Origin: a virus | Strand: one strand, 5' to 3' | IMG/VR virus record: IMGVR_UViG_3300017755_000046 | Span: 1 to 31,691 of that record | DNA: 31,691 nt | Shown here: positions 7,840 to 25,355 of the stretch, piece after piece | Numbering within the stretch: the first letter of the stretch is position 1 | Layout: each line of letters opens with the position of its first letter | Translations under genes and position numbers: made by a program | Notes under the pieces: generated by a model | The model's database searches: none | Told to the model about the DNA's origin: nothing | What the model saw: the letters and a program-made list of their open reading frames with translations, nothing else

Positions 7840-9333
7840 GAGAAAGTAATAGAACTCATTATAGACGAAGAAAACGAATTTAGTGGGATAGAAGCTATCT
7901 CGGTAGTAGAAAACCCAGCTATAGAAGAAGACTTCATTGCGCTCAAGAAAGAGCCAGTTATGCTTGCTGAAGTAGATGGTGAAAAGCGTATACTGATGGG
8001 AGCAGCTTTGGTCCCCAATAAGAAAATATTAAGAAGGGGAGAAGACGGAGATTACTACATTTATTTCTCTGTAGACACTGTAAGAAAAGCTTCAGAGCTT
8101 TTCCTTAAGAGAGGTTATCAATCAAATTCTACATTAGAGCATAATGAAAAGCTTGACGGGATGACTGTCGTGGAAAGCTGGCTAGTGGAGGACGAGAAGA
8201 AAGATAAATCTAGGAAATATGGATTTGATGTACCGGTAGGAACCTGGATGGTTTCTATGAAGGTATATAATGATGATGTCTGGAAAAAGGTTAAAGATGG
8301 AGAGGTCCACGGATTCTCTATTGAAGGCTACTTTGCAGATAACGCTGATGAGGGTCCTCAGGACACTTTACCAGAGTCTTTTTGTGATGAATGCGTTGAG
8401 GAACTAAATGCAGAATACGAATTGCTAGAAGCCCTCTCAGAGCTTTCTGAGGAGGTAGATCTAGAATCTTATGGAGGATATCCAAAGTCTGCTGTCAACA
8501 ATGCTAAAAGAGGTATAGAACTAAATGAGAAAGTTGGAAATCGTTGTGCTACCCAGGTGGGAAAAGTTAGAGGACAACAAATCGCAAAGGGAAGTACTAA
8601 ATTTACATTACCTACTCTCAAGAGGATCTACAGTTATTTATCTAGAGCAGAAACATATTACGACTCTGGCAACTCAGAAGCTTGCGGAACCATTTCTTAT
8701 TTACTATGGGGAGGCAAAAGTATGCTAACTTGGGTTACTTCTAAACTCAAAGGACTAAACGCAATAGAAGCTTCTGCAACAATTATAGACGGAAGAGCTG
8801 CATACTCTACACAAGAAGAGGCAGAAGAAGCAGCTAAAGATATAGGGTGTGAAGGACATCACACCCACGATTACGAAGGCGATACTTGGTATATGCCTTG
8901 CGAGAAACACAATATGGCCGAGGTTGGACCAAAGGGAGGGGTTAGAAAAAGCCCTAAAGCCCCTAAGTCCGATACGCCTAACCCTAGCCCAAAGGGCAAG
9001 GGTACGGCTAAAGGCGATGCTTCGGGCAAAACCGGAGCCAAAGTCTCTGCAAAAGACAGAGCAACACTTCAAAACAAAGCAGATGAATTTAATAAGAAAT
9101 ATAAAGAAAAACTGGGTTATGGTGTCACTGTTGGTATGCTTGCCTCTGTTTTTCAGCGTGGCTTGGGAGCTTTTAATACAAGTCACAGTCCTAATGTTAA
9201 GTCAGCTTCTCAGTGGGCTTTTGCACGCACTAATGCCTTTTTATACTTAATTAAAAACGGTAGACCAGAGAATGCAAAGTACACAACAGATTACGATTTA
9301 TTACCAAAGAAACATCCGAAGTCTAGCAAGTAA
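7837..9333 (+). CDS. XkdF-like head maturation protease with extra C-terminal modules
   Basis: A 498-residue protein. Residues about 1-170 look like the XkdF/prohead serine protease family, which cleaves scaffold and capsid during head maturation: GIEAISVVENPAIEEDF, then STLEHN with candidate catalytic His102 and VHGFSIEGYF with candidate Ser161. Residues about 212-305 form a second module (YGGYPKSAVNNAKRGIEL...IYSYLSRAETYY). Residues 320-360 are a small Cys/His-rich patch (CEGHHTHDYEGDTWYMPCEKH). A Lys/Pro/Ser linker leads to a last module near 405-490 with GLGAFNTSHSP and NAFLYLIKNGRPENAKY. Only the first module is usual for this enzyme. ATG 7837 is on the conserved start box. Confidence 0.7.
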   Translation: MEKVIELIIDEENEFSGIEAISVVENPAIEEDFIALKKEPVMLAEVDGEKRILMGAALVPNKKILRRGEDGDYYIYFSVDTVRKASELFLKRGYQSNSTLEHNEKLDGMTVVESWLVEDEKKDKSRKYGFDVPVGTWMVSMKVYNDDVWKKVKDGEVHGFSIEGYFADNADEGPQDTLPESFCDECVEELNAEYELLEALSELSEEVDLESYGGYPKSAVNNAKRGIELNEKVGNRCATQVGKVRGQQIAKGSTKFTLPTLKRIYSYLSRAETYYDSGNSEACGTISYLLWGGKSMLTWVTSKLKGLNAIEASATIIDGRAAYSTQEEAEEAAKDIGCEGHHTHDYEGDTWYMPCEKHNMAEVGPKGGVRKSPKAPKSDTPNPSPKGKGTAKGDASGKTGAKVSAKDRATLQNKADEFNKKYKEKLGYGVTVGMLASVFQRGLGAFNTSHSPNVKSASQWAFARTNAFLYLIKNGRPENAKYTTDYDLLPKKHPKSSK

Positions 9334-10889
9334 TGAGAAGCAAAAGAGGAAGTTATTCAAGCCCTAGAGGATCAAGAAGAGCGTGTCTATGTAAAGATGG
9401 CAGGACATACTCAAGGAAGTGCTGTGATGGCGAATTGATTAACCAAGGGATTGGAAGCATATATGCTCCTTCTTTGGGTTGTCAAAACTTAACCTTAAGT
9501 GGTTTTAGTGTGGCAACAGATGGTACAGTCACATTACCTACCACAGATGTAGGAACTATAACATCTACAACACCAGCATCTTTTGCTGCTGTTGATACTT
9601 CAACTGAAAGGACTTTAACGGTTTCTATATTGGTTCCTGGTGGATACAGCAATGCAGAAAAAACAATAGAATGTACAACCACAGCCACTCAACCGGCTAC
9701 GCCTACACTTTCTTGTAGCGATATAACTTTATCTGGATTTGCAGTAGCTCAAAACGGAACGGTTACGCTTCCTACTGCGGACATAGGCACAATATCTAGT
9801 ACAAGCCCAGCTTCATTTGCAATAGTAAATGTGAGTACTGTAAGAACTCTAAACGTAGATATTACGGTTCCTTCTGGGTACTTCAACGCAGGAGCCACAC
9901 TTAATTGTACCACAACGGCCACGCAGCCGTTGACTCCTACTTTAGCGTGTTCAGACATAACTATAAGTGGATTTGCTGTAGATGAAAACGGAGCAATAAC
10001 ATTGCCTACTTTAGATATAGGAACTATTTCATCAAGTAGTCCGGCATCTTATGCTACCGTGTCTACAGACACAGTTAGGACACTAAACCTAGATATTACT
10101 GTACCAGCAGGTTATTTTAATGTGGGAAGTACATTAGCTTGTACGACCACAGCAACTCAACCTCCTTATAATGTTCTTGATTGTAGTGAGATTACCATCT
10201 CAGGATTTAGTGTTTATGCAAGTGGTAATTATGTAACACCAACTGTAGATATAGGAACAATAAGTGGCACATCACCTTCTAGCTTTAGTACTGTCACCTC
10301 AGAGACCAATAGGACTCTGACGGTGAATATAACAGTACCTTCTGGATATACTAATGCTGGAGCAACTTTGTCTTGTACGGTTGTAGCAACACAACAACCT
10401 GCATTTTATTTTAGTCAGATAACTCCAGCGGCTGGAAACTACATTTCTGTAGAACCTATAGCAAATACAAGTTCTAACACCTATGCATTTAGTATATATG
10501 GCAATGATCCTGAAACTAGCAGGCTTAATGCTGTAGCGTTGTCTAATCAACTAGGAACAGAAATAAGAGGCCAAACAACTACTCCAGGAAGCACTTTTGC
10601 TTTTAGGGACACAAGAGTTTCATTCTATAGTCCTTCTGACAGTCTAATAGTTAAGTTTGAAACAGACAGCGGAATAAACAATACATTCAGTTATGTTGCT
10701 CCGGATACTTTAGGAACGGTTCCCGCAAGTCCTTATGGAGGTAATGCATCAAGCTGGACAAGCTATAAAATGGTATTCAGCGCAGTTACTAGCGTATCGG
10801 GTAGCGCGGTAAATAACCCTGCTCACGAGGAGATAATAAACAATGGTAGTGACCAAGGTTATTACTGGGTCATAGAGGACTTAAGCTAA
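9333..10889 (+). CDS. Virion protein with four Ig-like repeats (decoration/appendage)
   Basis: A 518-residue protein. The N-terminus is basic and Cys-rich (SRRACLCKDGRTYSRKCCDGE). Residues 50 to about 356 are four 78-residue repeats, each starting C-x-x-[IL]-T-[LI]-SGF-[AS]-V and ending in C-T-x-x-ATQ. The C-terminal 160 residues are a distinct beta-rich domain ending YYWVIEDLS. Two Cys per repeat could form a disulphide in the extracellular virion. ATG overlaps the protease stop (TAATG). Located between protease and scaffold, it could be a head fibre or decoration protein that binds host surfaces. The same module occurs in the gene at 2036. Confidence 0.6.
   Translation: MRSKRGSYSSPRGSRRACLCKDGRTYSRKCCDGELINQGIGSIYAPSLGCQNLTLSGFSVATDGTVTLPTTDVGTITSTTPASFAAVDTSTERTLTVSILVPGGYSNAEKTIECTTTATQPATPTLSCSDITLSGFAVAQNGTVTLPTADIGTISSTSPASFAIVNVSTVRTLNVDITVPSGYFNAGATLNCTTTATQPLTPTLACSDITISGFAVDENGAITLPTLDIGTISSSSPASYATVSTDTVRTLNLDITVPAGYFNVGSTLACTTTATQPPYNVLDCSEITISGFSVYASGNYVTPTVDIGTISGTSPSSFSTVTSETNRTLTVNITVPSGYTNAGATLSCTVVATQQPAFYFSQITPAAGNYISVEPIANTSSNTYAFSIYGNDPETSRLNAVALSNQLGTEIRGQTTTPGSTFAFRDTRVSFYSPSDSLIVKFETDSGINNTFSYVAPDTLGTVPASPYGGNASSWTSYKMVFSAVTSVSGSAVNNPAHEEIINNGSDQGYYWVIEDLS
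9480..10400 (+). repeat. Four 234-bp in-frame repeats encoding Ig-like modules
   Basis: Units begin at 9480, 9714, 9948 and 10182, with a period of exactly 78 codons. Shared features are GF[AS]V, [LT]PT.D[IV]GTI[ST], R T L . V . I . VP . GY . N, and C T . . ATQ. The first three are most alike; the fourth is more diverged. Exact periodicity suggests expansion by unequal recombination. Confidence 0.9.
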
Positions 10890-22191: not shown

Positions 22192-22598
22192 AGATGCCTA
22201 CTAATGGAGTAGCAAAAGACATCAGACACTATGTAGGTAGTCTGATTGTCTTTTTTTTGGTAGTATTAATTCTATACTACCTTACAAAATATACCATCCC
22301 AAGCGACAATGCACAAATAGTGAACACTCTTATTGGTATGATAGCTGCTAGTATTGCTATGGTTATTGCCTCTATCACTGGTAGAAATCCGGATGACCTT
22401 GAGGCTGCTAAGAAGAAGATTAGTAACTTAGAGATGAAAATAGAGATGCTGGTCCAATCCAAGGATATGCTAGAGAATATGCTTATCAAGGTGCAGGATG
22501 ATACTATAGACAGATTATTACTCAACAAGACACTACAGTATGATGACTGCAAGACAGGCAAATGTAAGTGTAAAAACCAATGTAAAAATGAGTCTTAA
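22188..22598 (+). CDS. Holin-type membrane protein with cytoplasmic coiled coil
   Basis: A 136-residue protein with two membrane segments (about residues 15-35, [17 protein letters not shown], and about 46-63, [16 protein letters not shown]), a helical region ([20 protein letters not shown]), and a Cys/Lys-rich end ([16 protein letters not shown]). This matches holin-like proteins of lysis cassettes, which permeabilise the inner membrane so the endolysin can act. It is coupled to the small membrane protein before it and overlaps the endolysin start. The cysteine tail is odd and might bind metal or form disulphides. Confidence 0.6.
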
Positions 22599-22947
22599 AC
22601 ATTTCAAGTATGAAGAATTTGCATCCCCGGATGTTCCTCACTCTGGTGAGTATATGGATACTGAGTTCCTTTCAATGCTCGACCACGCACGTCAAGTGGC
22701 CGGGATCCCGTTTAAAATCAACTCCGGATATCGGACTATCGAACATAACGAAAAAGTTGGAGGAAGACCGAACTCAAGCCATATTGTGGGAAAGGCAGTT
22801 GATATTGCAATCCAGGGTTCGAGAGAAAGATGGATTATACTTGAAGCCCTTATTAACGCAGGCTTCACTAGGTTTGGTATTGCCAACACTTTCATCCACG
22901 TTGACTCGGATGACCACAAAGACCCAAATGTTATCTGGACGTATTAG
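22588..22947 (+). CDS. Endolysin: M15-type D,D/L,D-peptidase
   Basis: A 119-residue zinc peptidase of the M15A type that cuts peptide cross-links of peptidoglycan. The core motif S-x-H-x-x-G-x-A-x-D is intact ([10 protein letters not shown]: His65, Asp72), and the third zinc ligand is His104 in IHVD. NSGYRT at 45-50 is also typical. There is no signal peptide, so release through a holin is expected, consistent with the holin gene it overlaps. I chose ATG 22588 ([11 protein letters not shown]), since the longer frame only adds residues read out of frame from the holin end. A diverged paralogue lies at 24077. Confidence 0.85.
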
Positions 22948-23165: not shown

Positions 23166-23256
23166 AGAATTAACTAAAGACGTTTGCATAGATAATCCAC
23201 ACGAAGTCAAACTAGCTCAGATATTATATAACGAGATTGTAAATGTCAAAGACTAA
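23086..23256 (+). CDS. Spanin-like lipoprotein (56 aa)
   Basis: A 56-codon frame starting ATG 23086 inside the previous gene. The product begins MRLTTILLVATMISCASVRE: positively charged start, hydrophobic stretch and a lipobox ending I-S-C, so it should be lipidated at Cys15 and moved to an outer membrane. The mature part is short and charged and contains one more Cys. Size, lipobox and position in the lysis cassette match outer-membrane spanin subunits (Rz1-like), which fuse or disrupt the outer membrane. It overlaps the next ATG (23243). Confidence 0.6.
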   Translation: MRLTTILLVATMISCASVREKNLVRFKELTKDVCIDNPHEVKLAQILYNEIVNVKD

Positions 23257-23659
23257 GAAGAAGTTTAAAGATACAGCAGTAGGATCATTCCTACTGCAAA
23301 AGATACCTAAAGTTGTAGGTGCTATAGCACAAGACACTCCGGTGGGGAATGTAATAGAGGCGATTATAGGAGGTTCTGATATGTCTTCTGAAGATAAAGA
23401 GATAGCATTAGAGAAACTGCGCCTAGAGAGAGCTGAGATGGACGGAGTGACCCGTAGATGGGTTGCTGATAGCAGAAGTGGGTGGCTCGCACAAAATGTG
23501 CGGCCACTTACATTAGTATTCTTAACTGTCAGTTATGTAGCTGGGTGGTATATGGGCTATCCATTAGATTCTATTACAGGCTTATTAACTATTGTAATTG
23601 GTGGCTATTTTGGCAGCCGCGGAGTCGAGAAGGTGTTTGGTAACAAGATGCATCAGTAA
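23243..23659 (+). CDS. Second holin-type membrane protein
   Basis: A 138-residue protein with a helical N-terminal domain (LEKLRLERAEMDGVTRRWVA) and hydrophobic segments in the C-terminal half (about 84-102, PLTLVFLTVSYVAGWYMGY, and 107-125, ITGLLTIVIGGYFGSRG). The pattern RRWVADSRSGWLAQNVRPL, followed by two or three membrane helices and GSRGVEK, is that of the three-helix holin family linked with release of gene-transfer agents and phages. Two holin-type proteins in one cassette may act as holin and antiholin. The start overlaps the lipoprotein gene. Confidence 0.7.
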   Translation: MSKTKKKFKDTAVGSFLLQKIPKVVGAIAQDTPVGNVIEAIIGGSDMSSEDKEIALEKLRLERAEMDGVTRRWVADSRSGWLAQNVRPLTLVFLTVSYVAGWYMGYPLDSITGLLTIVIGGYFGSRGVEKVFGNKMHQ

Positions 23660-23793
23660 TGGCCCGTAGAGCAGAACCCACATTCCAGAAGAAGAAAAGA
23701 GTTAAGCGACCTGGTACGCACGCTAAGTCTAAGACTAGCGTGCTAAAAAGCTCTAAGAACTACACTAAGAAGTATCGAGGTCAGGGTAGATAG
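23659..23793 (+). CDS. Very basic small phage protein (44 aa)
   Basis: A 44-residue product, MARRAEPTFQKKKRVKRPGT then HAKSKTSVLKSSKNYTKKYR and GQGR, with about 18 Lys/Arg. The start overlaps the holin stop (TAATG). Short proteins with the signature HAK-x-K-S..LKSSKNY-KKY-RGQGR recur in phages of very different hosts. Their role is not established; nucleic acid binding is plausible. It is the last gene before the main late terminator. Confidence 0.65.
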   Translation: MARRAEPTFQKKKRVKRPGTHAKSKTSVLKSSKNYTKKYRGQGR

Positions 23794-23836: not shown

Positions 23837-23887
23837 TGTCCCACTGTCCCATACCCTAAGGGTGGGACACTGGGACAGTACTTTTTT
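23837..23887 (+). terminator. Strong terminator closing the late/lysis operon
   Basis: A 15-bp arm (23837-23851) pairs with 23863-23877 with one C-C mismatch; each arm itself contains the repeat TGTCCCA. The loop holds CCC-TAA-GGG, able to extend the stem. Six T follow at 23882-23887. Both arms are nearly perfect, so termination should be efficient, isolating late genes from the early region. Confidence 0.9.
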
Positions 23888-23897
23888 ATGTGTAATT

Positions 23898-23951
23898 AAA
23901 AGAAAACAAAGAAAAAGAAAAGGGTAAAAGAAAAAGAAAGAAAAGAAAAAG
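23898..23951. other. 54-nt polypurine tract
   Basis: Of 54 bases, all but two (C at 23907, T at 23925) are A or G, mostly runs of A with single G. It is followed by GCCCCC. It lies between the late terminator and the first early gene and encodes nothing. Such tracts can bend DNA, form triplex or unwind easily, so a replication or regulatory role is possible. Confidence 0.8.
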
Positions 23952-24020
23952 CCCCCTAGAAAAACAAACTTTCAATGCTATCTGATCCAACAATATCTCT
24001 ATTGAAGTTTGGTAGTTTTT

Positions 24021-24042
24021 AACGTAGATCTACTGCTACGTT
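24021..24042. promoter_or_regulatory. Inverted repeat over promoter: candidate operator
   Basis: AACGTAG (24021-24027) and CTACGTT (24036-24042) are perfect inverted arms with an 8-base spacer; within it, GTAGATCTAC (24024-24033) is a 10-bp palindrome. The right arm touches the -33 TTTG, where a bound dimer would block polymerase. No T run follows, so it is not a terminator. Confidence 0.5.
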
Positions 24043-24073
24043 TTGCAAATGTATAAAAAAAATATTATATTGC
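24042..24073 (+). promoter_or_regulatory. Early promoter P1 (Bacteroidetes -33/-7 type)
   Basis: TTTG (24042-24045), a 20-base spacer, and TATATTGC (24066-24073), followed by AGT and the ATG at 24077. Two more sites in the early region have the same layout. The ATG is so near the -7 box that the transcript would be leaderless or nearly so. Confidence 0.6.
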
Positions 24074-24076
24074 AGT

Positions 24077-24442
24077 ATGGAATTAAGACATTTTCTTATT
24101 ACAGAGTTCGACAGTCCCGATCAACCGGGGTCTGCCGAGAAGTATATGGATAGAGAATTTCTTACTATGATAGATGCAGCTGCACATTTATGCAAGCTGC
24201 AATTCTTAATAGTGTCTGGTTACAGGACTAAGTTCCAAAACAGACGTTGGGAAGACTCTAGTGTAAGCAGCCACCTTATAGGTAAGGCTGCGATAATACG
24301 TTGTGAGAACTCTAAGAAACGATACAAGATGATAGCTTCTTTGATGGAGGTTGGCTTTAGTCGAATAGCTGTGTCTAGGGACCAGAAGACTATCTATGTA
24401 GATAATGATGATCAAAAACCGGATATGTTTTGGTTATATTAA
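24077..24442 (+). CDS. M15 peptidase-like protein with lost zinc ligands
   Basis: A 121-residue protein aligning over its whole length with the endolysin at 22588: HF...EF.SPD, Y.D.EFL.M.D, SGYRT, SSH..GKA, GF.R....., VD.DD. It keeps His66 of the zinc motif, but the Asp is replaced by Ile73 (GKAAIIR instead of GKAVDIA) and the third ligand His by Tyr107 (IYVDN instead of IHVDS). Peptidase activity is therefore unlikely. It has its own host-like promoter and a strong terminator, so it is an isolated, probably early gene rather than part of the lysis cassette. It may bind peptidoglycan without cutting, or regulate the endolysin. Function is unproven. Confidence 0.75.
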   Translation: MELRHFLITEFDSPDQPGSAEKYMDREFLTMIDAAAHLCKLQFLIVSGYRTKFQNRRWEDSSVSSHLIGKAAIIRCENSKKRYKMIASLMEVGFSRIAVSRDQKTIYVDNDDQKPDMFWLY

Positions 24443-24519
24443 TAATATAATATATATTTGTCTGAATTTAAATTATTAATTGTTTTTCATTTTTAAATTG
24501 TTTTAGTTAATTTGGTTGG

Positions 24520-24550
24520 AAGAGCTGTAGAGATACAGCTCTTTTTTTTT
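24520..24550 (+). terminator. Terminator after the M15-like gene
   Basis: AAGAGCTGTA (24520-24529), loop GAGA, TACAGCTCTT (24534-24543): a perfect 10-bp stem followed by an unbroken T run to 24550. Confidence 0.93.
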
Positions 24551-24800: not shown

Positions 24801-25355
24801 ATGAATATTACACAGAAACTATTAATGATCCAAACGGAGCTTAAGGCTCCTAAGAACCAAAGGAATGCCTTTGGGAAGTACAATTACAGATCTGCCGAGG
24901 ACATCTTGGAGGCTGTTAAACCATTAGCTATGAAGCACGAAGCCGTGCTTAAGATGACTGATGAGATTAAAGAAGTTGGAGGAGTCTTATATATTGAGTC
25001 TACTGCCAAGCTTATTGATGCTAAAGACCCTAGTATGCAGATTGAGTCTAATGCCCAGGCTATTATAGACTTTGATGCTAAAGGGATGCAACAGCCCCAG
25101 AGAACTGGTGCTGCTTCTAGCTATGCTAAAAAGTATGCCATAGGTAATTTATTGCTTATAGATGATACTAAAGATGCTGATGCTACAAATGATCACAGCA
25201 AGTCTAGTCCGGGCAAACCAGCCCTAGTAAAAGACTCTCCTGAATATAAAAAGGTAGTATCTTACCTTGATGGAGGGGGCAACGTTGCTGCTGTTATGAG
25301 AAAGTATACTATTAATAACGATCTATTGAAAGATCTTAAATCACTAATTAAATAA
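24801..25355 (+). CDS. erf: ERF-family single-strand annealing protein
   Basis: A 184-residue recombination protein that anneals complementary single strands and works with a 5'-3' exonuclease. The ERF core is clear: MIQTELKAPKNQRNAFGKYN, YRSAEDILEAVKPLAMKHEA, then the hallmark QRTGAASSYAKKYAIGNLLL with IDDTKDADATN. The C-terminal 50 residues are a variable tail with a small helical domain (YKKVVSYLDGGGNVAAVMRK). It forms a set with the exonuclease at 29573, the SSB-like protein next to it and RusA at 26917, together able to carry out recombination-dependent replication and end repair. Confidence 0.88.
   Translation: MNITQKLLMIQTELKAPKNQRNAFGKYNYRSAEDILEAVKPLAMKHEAVLKMTDEIKEVGGVLYIESTAKLIDAKDPSMQIESNAQAIIDFDAKGMQQPQRTGAASSYAKKYAIGNLLLIDDTKDADATNDHSKSSPGKPALVKDSPEYKKVVSYLDGGGNVAAVMRKYTINNDLLKDLKSLIK

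Follow-up and report, generated by a model that had tools for sequence, protein, structure and literature searches.

Introduction

Phage endolysins are usually regarded as single-purpose enzymes. Those of the Peptidase_M15_3 type (PF08291, PHROG 894) are the closest described relatives of the protein studied here, and for an M15 peptidase to be active a His-Asp-His set of zinc ligands is required. The Zn DD-peptidase of Streptomyces albus (PDB 1lbu) is the closest known structure; its His154 and Asp161 are zinc ligands. An M15-like (LAS) fold is also found in the N-terminal domain of Hedgehog, where it has a signalling role (PMC6027127, PMC8052667).

The window, that is, the whole stretch of 31,691 bases of viral DNA analysed here, carries two M15 genes, the only ones retrieved when the complete record was searched with the protein of the second. 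One of them encodes an intact endolysin and the other a degenerate protein (Table 1). From sequence comparison, the latter is probably a conserved pseudo-endolysin that was apparently displaced at lysis and kept for some task other than catalysis. Relatives of the portal and ATPase proteins occur in phages of Nonlabens, Flavobacterium and Olleya, which makes a marine flavobacterium the probable host.

Table 1. Features of the locus, in window coordinates.
Feature	Position	Strand	Basis and remarks
Intact M15_3 endolysin, HDH triad, upstream of holin, separate clade	22588..22947	+	Profiles, alignment, trees
Holin	23243..23659	+	PHROG 3427; homologue in L019 matches Pfam GTA_holin_3TM
44-aa basic protein between holin and early-locus M15 gene	23659..23793	+	Conserved in most relatives; no Pfam match
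Terminator-like hairpin and T run after 44-aa gene	23837..23885	+	Found in some relatives only
Predicted structured RNA, leftward	23898..24041	-	Covariation, covariance model; both ends inferred
Parts of the RNA	pseudoknot near start, 24039 to 24012; GNRA hairpin, 24004 to 23991; U/C-rich tail	-	
Leftward Bacteroidota-type -7 box, TACATTTG	24046..24053	-	TAnnTTTG in 51/52 aligned copies
Degenerate M15_3 protein, 121 aa, triad H66-I73-Y107	24077..24442	+	Pfam and PHROG profiles, alignment, structure model
Terminator after degenerate M15 gene	24518..24545	+	10/10 paired core; stem kept by compensatory changes in orthologues
Erf-like ssDNA-annealing protein	24801..25355	+	Fixed downstream neighbour of early-locus M15 gene

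The Degenerate Protein and Its Metal Site

The degenerate protein is matched by Peptidase_M15_3 with 27 bits, above the curated cut-off of 23.2 (E 5e-6), and also by the PHROG endolysin family. Along its whole length it can be aligned to the endolysin of the same phage (42% identity, E 1e-32), and the alignment bears out the two replacements pointed out in the initial annotation, Ile for the zinc-binding Asp and Tyr for the third His. The ligand motif HxxxxxxD reads H66...I73, residue 73 being the ligand position, and the third-ligand His has become Tyr107 (TIYVD versus FIHVD), which leaves the protein short of the set needed for activity. In the family profile, H66 falls on His154 of 1lbu, the column of residue 73 on Asp161 and Arg50 on Arg138. 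An AlphaFold2 model obtained with 13 relatives in the alignment has a pLDDT of 95.8, and its closest PDB structure is 1lbu with a Z of 13.9, which places the protein within the M15 fold. The fold of the window endolysin, predicted without an alignment, was a poor model and was set aside.

Judging from these residues, catalysis would have been lost. Because R50 is kept in the window copy, peptide binding may still take place there. Metal binding is conceivable for the copies of related phages that have H-E-Y or H-H-H triads.

Conservation and Selection

The search for orthologues with the same replacements, proposed in the initial annotation, was carried out in IMG/VR, and all the close orthologues (contigs at 88-100% identity) retain both I73 and Y107. 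Their dN/dS against the window copy is 0.03-0.12. At the equivalent locus of related phages a profile scan found the triads H-V-Y, H-E-Y and H-K-Y, and copies with an H-H-H triad turned up by scanning for the neighbouring RNA described below. The pattern of the first scan was YVDNDD, so the fixation of Tyr107 in that set is partly a matter of ascertainment. An apparent rule that Y107 is always paired with a lost D73, with no intermediates, was discarded as an artefact of the same scan, since the H-H-H copies keep H107. The median dN/dS of the degenerate groups (HIY 0.078, HVY 0.059, HEY 0.066, HHH 0.126) is within or below the range of the intact copies, with 0.112 for those at the early locus and 0.140 for those at the lysis locus.

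His66 and Asp109 are invariant across all five triad classes and a fixed Tyr107 is seen in four of them, whereas residue 73 varies freely among the degenerate groups, which have their own invariant residues. Residues such as R26, C76, K81, V108 and N110 are common to the degenerate copies and are absent or variable in the active lysis-locus copies; conversely, S47, R50, N55, D73 and H107, among others, are fixed in active copies and lost among degenerate ones. Moreover, the early-locus clade as a whole, intact or degenerate alike, shares R26, I68, R70, K81, V108, N110 and D112. The Arg of the 1lbu-type cleft (R50) is gone from many degenerate copies, and this loss, together with the residues common to the early clade, points in a direction away from the old substrate cleft.

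Essential residues are therefore lost in orthologues that evolve under purifying selection, as in a pseudoenzyme. Random decay is ruled out by the dN/dS values and by the substitutions common to orthologues. The earlier proposal of selection for a non-catalytic role gains support from these substitutions, the low dN/dS and the invariant residues of the degenerate groups. That the protein is functional is well supported by such comparisons; what it may do is taken up further below.

Phylogeny and the Link with a Second Lysin

For the tree of M15 proteins, positions 73 and 107 were masked. Those encoded between the holin and Erf genes form one clade (100/99), apart from those encoded upstream of the holin. 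Since the clades are separate, the degenerate protein was not copied from the window's own endolysin, and the trees rule out a recent duplication of the latter. Intact copies and three degenerate clusters make up the early-locus clade. Three losses are required by the best tree, but a tree with all degenerate copies in one clade is not rejected either (AU p 0.34), which leaves it uncertain how often the loss occurred independently.

The state of the triad goes together with the presence of another lysin. Among representatives at 95% identity, degenerate copies number 37 with a dedicated lysin and 0 without, and intact copies 5 with and 12 without, in a contingency table that ignores relatedness; related genomes not being independent, its Fisher value is not to be taken for a probability. 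One of these 12 (L136) is a MAG contig of doubtful placement that may not belong, which makes the count 11-12. The absence of a dedicated lysin refers here to M15_3 and Amidase_2; for two intact-copy representatives the genes upstream were also compared with Pfam, and no other hydrolase was matched. A single M15 and no Amidase_2 were found in the intact early-copy records L013, L019, L023, L155, L165, L144 and L159, as well as in L193, L164, L173, L150, L139 and L162.

The dedicated lysins beside degenerate copies are of four kinds: M15, YcbK-like M15, Amidase_2 (L069, L070) and DUF5675 (L071). The DUF5675 protein lies at the endolysin position before the holin (L071:1179-1625), from which we assume that it may act on the cell wall. 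The five intact copies with a lysin (L045, L151, L163, L201, L204) all stand beside a YcbK-like one, which means that ligand loss is not automatic; in some of them, a Mom-like gene lies between the RNA and the M15 gene. Orthologues with intact ligands had been named beforehand as a sign of random decay. Such copies do exist, yet mainly in genomes where no other lysis enzyme was found, and this distribution speaks for ordered loss, not for random decay.

Locus Layout and Expression Signals

The view of the degenerate gene as an isolated early gene, with its own promoter and operator and away from the lysis genes, is only partly right. The terminator after the gene is real (Table 1). The isolation is not borne out, since about 0.4 kb lie between the holin stop and the start of the gene, and 1.1 kb between the endolysin and that start. 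In the HVY and HEY lineages the M15 gene lies directly against the 44-aa gene behind the holin or overlaps it, and TAnnTTTG boxes are found downstream of the M15 gene. Sigma-70-like promoters are not above chance level (5 found against 4.1 expected), so that a sigma-70 promoter belonging to the gene is not supported, and the operator-like repeat falls within a conserved minus-strand element that is predicted to be a structured RNA.

The 44-aa protein ends in KKYRGQGR and may resemble cationic lysis peptides such as disruptins. Between its gene and the RNA, some relatives carry a gene resembling PD-(D/E)XK endonucleases (PF11645; L013:5484-5846). Elsewhere in the window, beside structural genes, positions 9333-10889 encode a 518-aa protein with about four 80-residue repeats (LSGFxVxxNGxxTxPTxDIGTISxxSPASF).

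A Predicted Structured RNA Next to the Gene

The noncoding DNA before the M15 gene is 94% identical between the window and L012, against 57% for the third codon positions of M15. The RNA alignment comprised 17 and later 52 distinct copies. In these copies GTAG/CTAC is paired across the GTAR/YTAC pseudoknot, and the hairpin, capped by a GNRA loop in 51 of the 52, shows full compensatory changes (CAATA/TATTG, GTATA/TATAC, CTATG/CATAG). Overall, 99.1% of the cells pair, compared with 19-49% for slid partners, and the covariation score was reached by none of 500 shuffles; the inner letters of stem 1 and the letters of the pseudoknot were set by the scan pattern, and the independent support consists of the outer pair, the R/Y pair and the hairpin. 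The outer pair of stem 1 fails in 4 of the 52 copies.

A plus-strand reading was rejected, since it is the minus strand that accounts for the GNRA loops and the wobble pairs, whereas the loops on the plus strand are of no recognised class. An outer stem derived from folding the window alone is not kept in relatives and was dropped, as was a likeness to the 3' end of 16S rRNA in UUGGAUCA, whose letters vary among relatives. Antisense targets within the window amounted to short, unconvincing matches.

The covariance model matches 84 places, a few contigs being listed twice, and in all the RNA is counted in about 85 IMG/VR contigs. In Rfam there was no gathering-score match in the window, and a relaxed threshold gave nothing credible. 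The RNA was found neither in isolated phages nor in 395 Bacteroidia genomes (a search without positive control), and it was undetected in the HVY and main HEY lineages tested. With its strong covariation, it looks like a new structured RNA family, apparently unreported. Because it occurs without a downstream M15 gene in L182 and L195 and went undetected in HVY and main HEY, its link is with the locus and not with the degenerate protein. Behind the RNA, a Mom-like DNA modification gene or NinG may take the place of M15 or precede it (L045:2588-3256; L182, L195).

Possible Explanations

The degenerate gene, we think, probably descends from an ancestral endolysin gene that sat between the holin and Erf genes. 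In relatives where no other lysis enzyme is found, the intact-triad copy would presumably serve as the endolysin. Once another wall hydrolase is encoded before the holin, the old copy would mostly lose its zinc ligands, keeping the fold and staying under purifying selection, and the outcome would be a pseudo-endolysin that has kept, or newly acquired, a non-proteolytic job. The order of events, replacement and then ligand loss, we infer. What computation shows, and what this reading builds on, are the substitutions and their conservation, the division into clades, the association with a second lysin and the fixed position. As for the job itself, our leading suggestion, a tentative one to which we give less than an even chance, is a small binder of a partner in the lysis cassette (holin or dedicated endolysin) that adjusts the timing or manner of lysis. 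It is also possible, although we are rather doubtful, that in one phage group different hydrolases took over lysis and the ancestral endolysin was then repeatedly turned into a regulator that is conserved but no longer an enzyme, in a slot controlled jointly with an unreported antisense structured RNA at the boundary of the late and the early genes.

Other readings have to be weighed against a pseudo-endolysin of this kind. The loss of two ligands beside a second active enzyme is what a functionless, decaying relic of a displaced endolysin would look like, but dN/dS medians of 0.06-0.13, new invariant residues and a fixed position over divergent phages disfavour it so strongly that we give it hardly any credit. 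The protein might instead bind peptidoglycan stem peptides or precursors and, in the manner of a decoy or shield, work against other phages or the phage's own endolysin. Wall-binding by an inactive hydrolase is easily imagined by analogy with the biology of the family, and the window lineage retains both the M15 fold and the SGYRT loop with its Arg50; however, most other degenerate lineages have replacements at S47, R50, N55 and G60 of the cleft, and there the protein is equally conserved, and inspection by eye noticed no signal peptide or membrane segment, which makes such a binder unlikely in our opinion.

A new or altered metal chemistry, in which H-E-Y and H-H-H could bind metal and Tyr107 could act as ligand or acid, would fit the invariance of His66 and Asp109 in all classes and the fixation of Tyr107 in most. 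We consider it quite improbable, given that sister lineages have I, V or K at residue 73, none of which can act as the same kind of ligand. The gene might also encode a regulator or anti-host protein that is expressed early, under joint control with the structured RNA and the genes for recombination. It lies between the RNA promoter and Erf, with its own terminator in the window lineage, and in L045 and L182 the slot holds the early-type genes Mom or NinG. Yet in HVY and main HEY, where the RNA is undetected, the M15 gene abuts the holin cassette and has the TAnnTTTG boxes downstream, and we hold such an early role to be possible but doubtful.

Comparison with Known Systems

With the terms used, the literature search found no report of such a pseudo-endolysin, and the named phages searched for the degenerate protein gave distant M15 matches only. 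A clade in which the enzyme is intact when alone and dead when replaced suggests that an endolysin can have a second, non-catalytic function, and it offers natural comparisons to find it. Besides, the labels "M15 peptidase" or "endolysin" that profile searches put on several of these proteins are probably wrong as to function.

The S. albus DD-peptidase is alike over 117 residues at the above Z, with the ligand and Arg columns aligned, but it is an active enzyme of 213 residues, matched over 81-209. The N-terminal domain of Hedgehog offers an M15-like fold in a binding role, with a structural Z of about 9 against the window protein, and the HEY protein of L072 has a weak match to HH_signal (E 0.008). 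Hedgehog keeps its zinc site, however, whereas two ligands are replaced in the window protein, and the sequence likeness is marginal. Peptidase_M15_3 phage endolysins are the nearest to our protein, which shares with them fold, length, HMM match, H66, SSH..GKA and VD.DD; it differs in that two of its three zinc ligands are replaced and that it stands beside a second, intact lysin.
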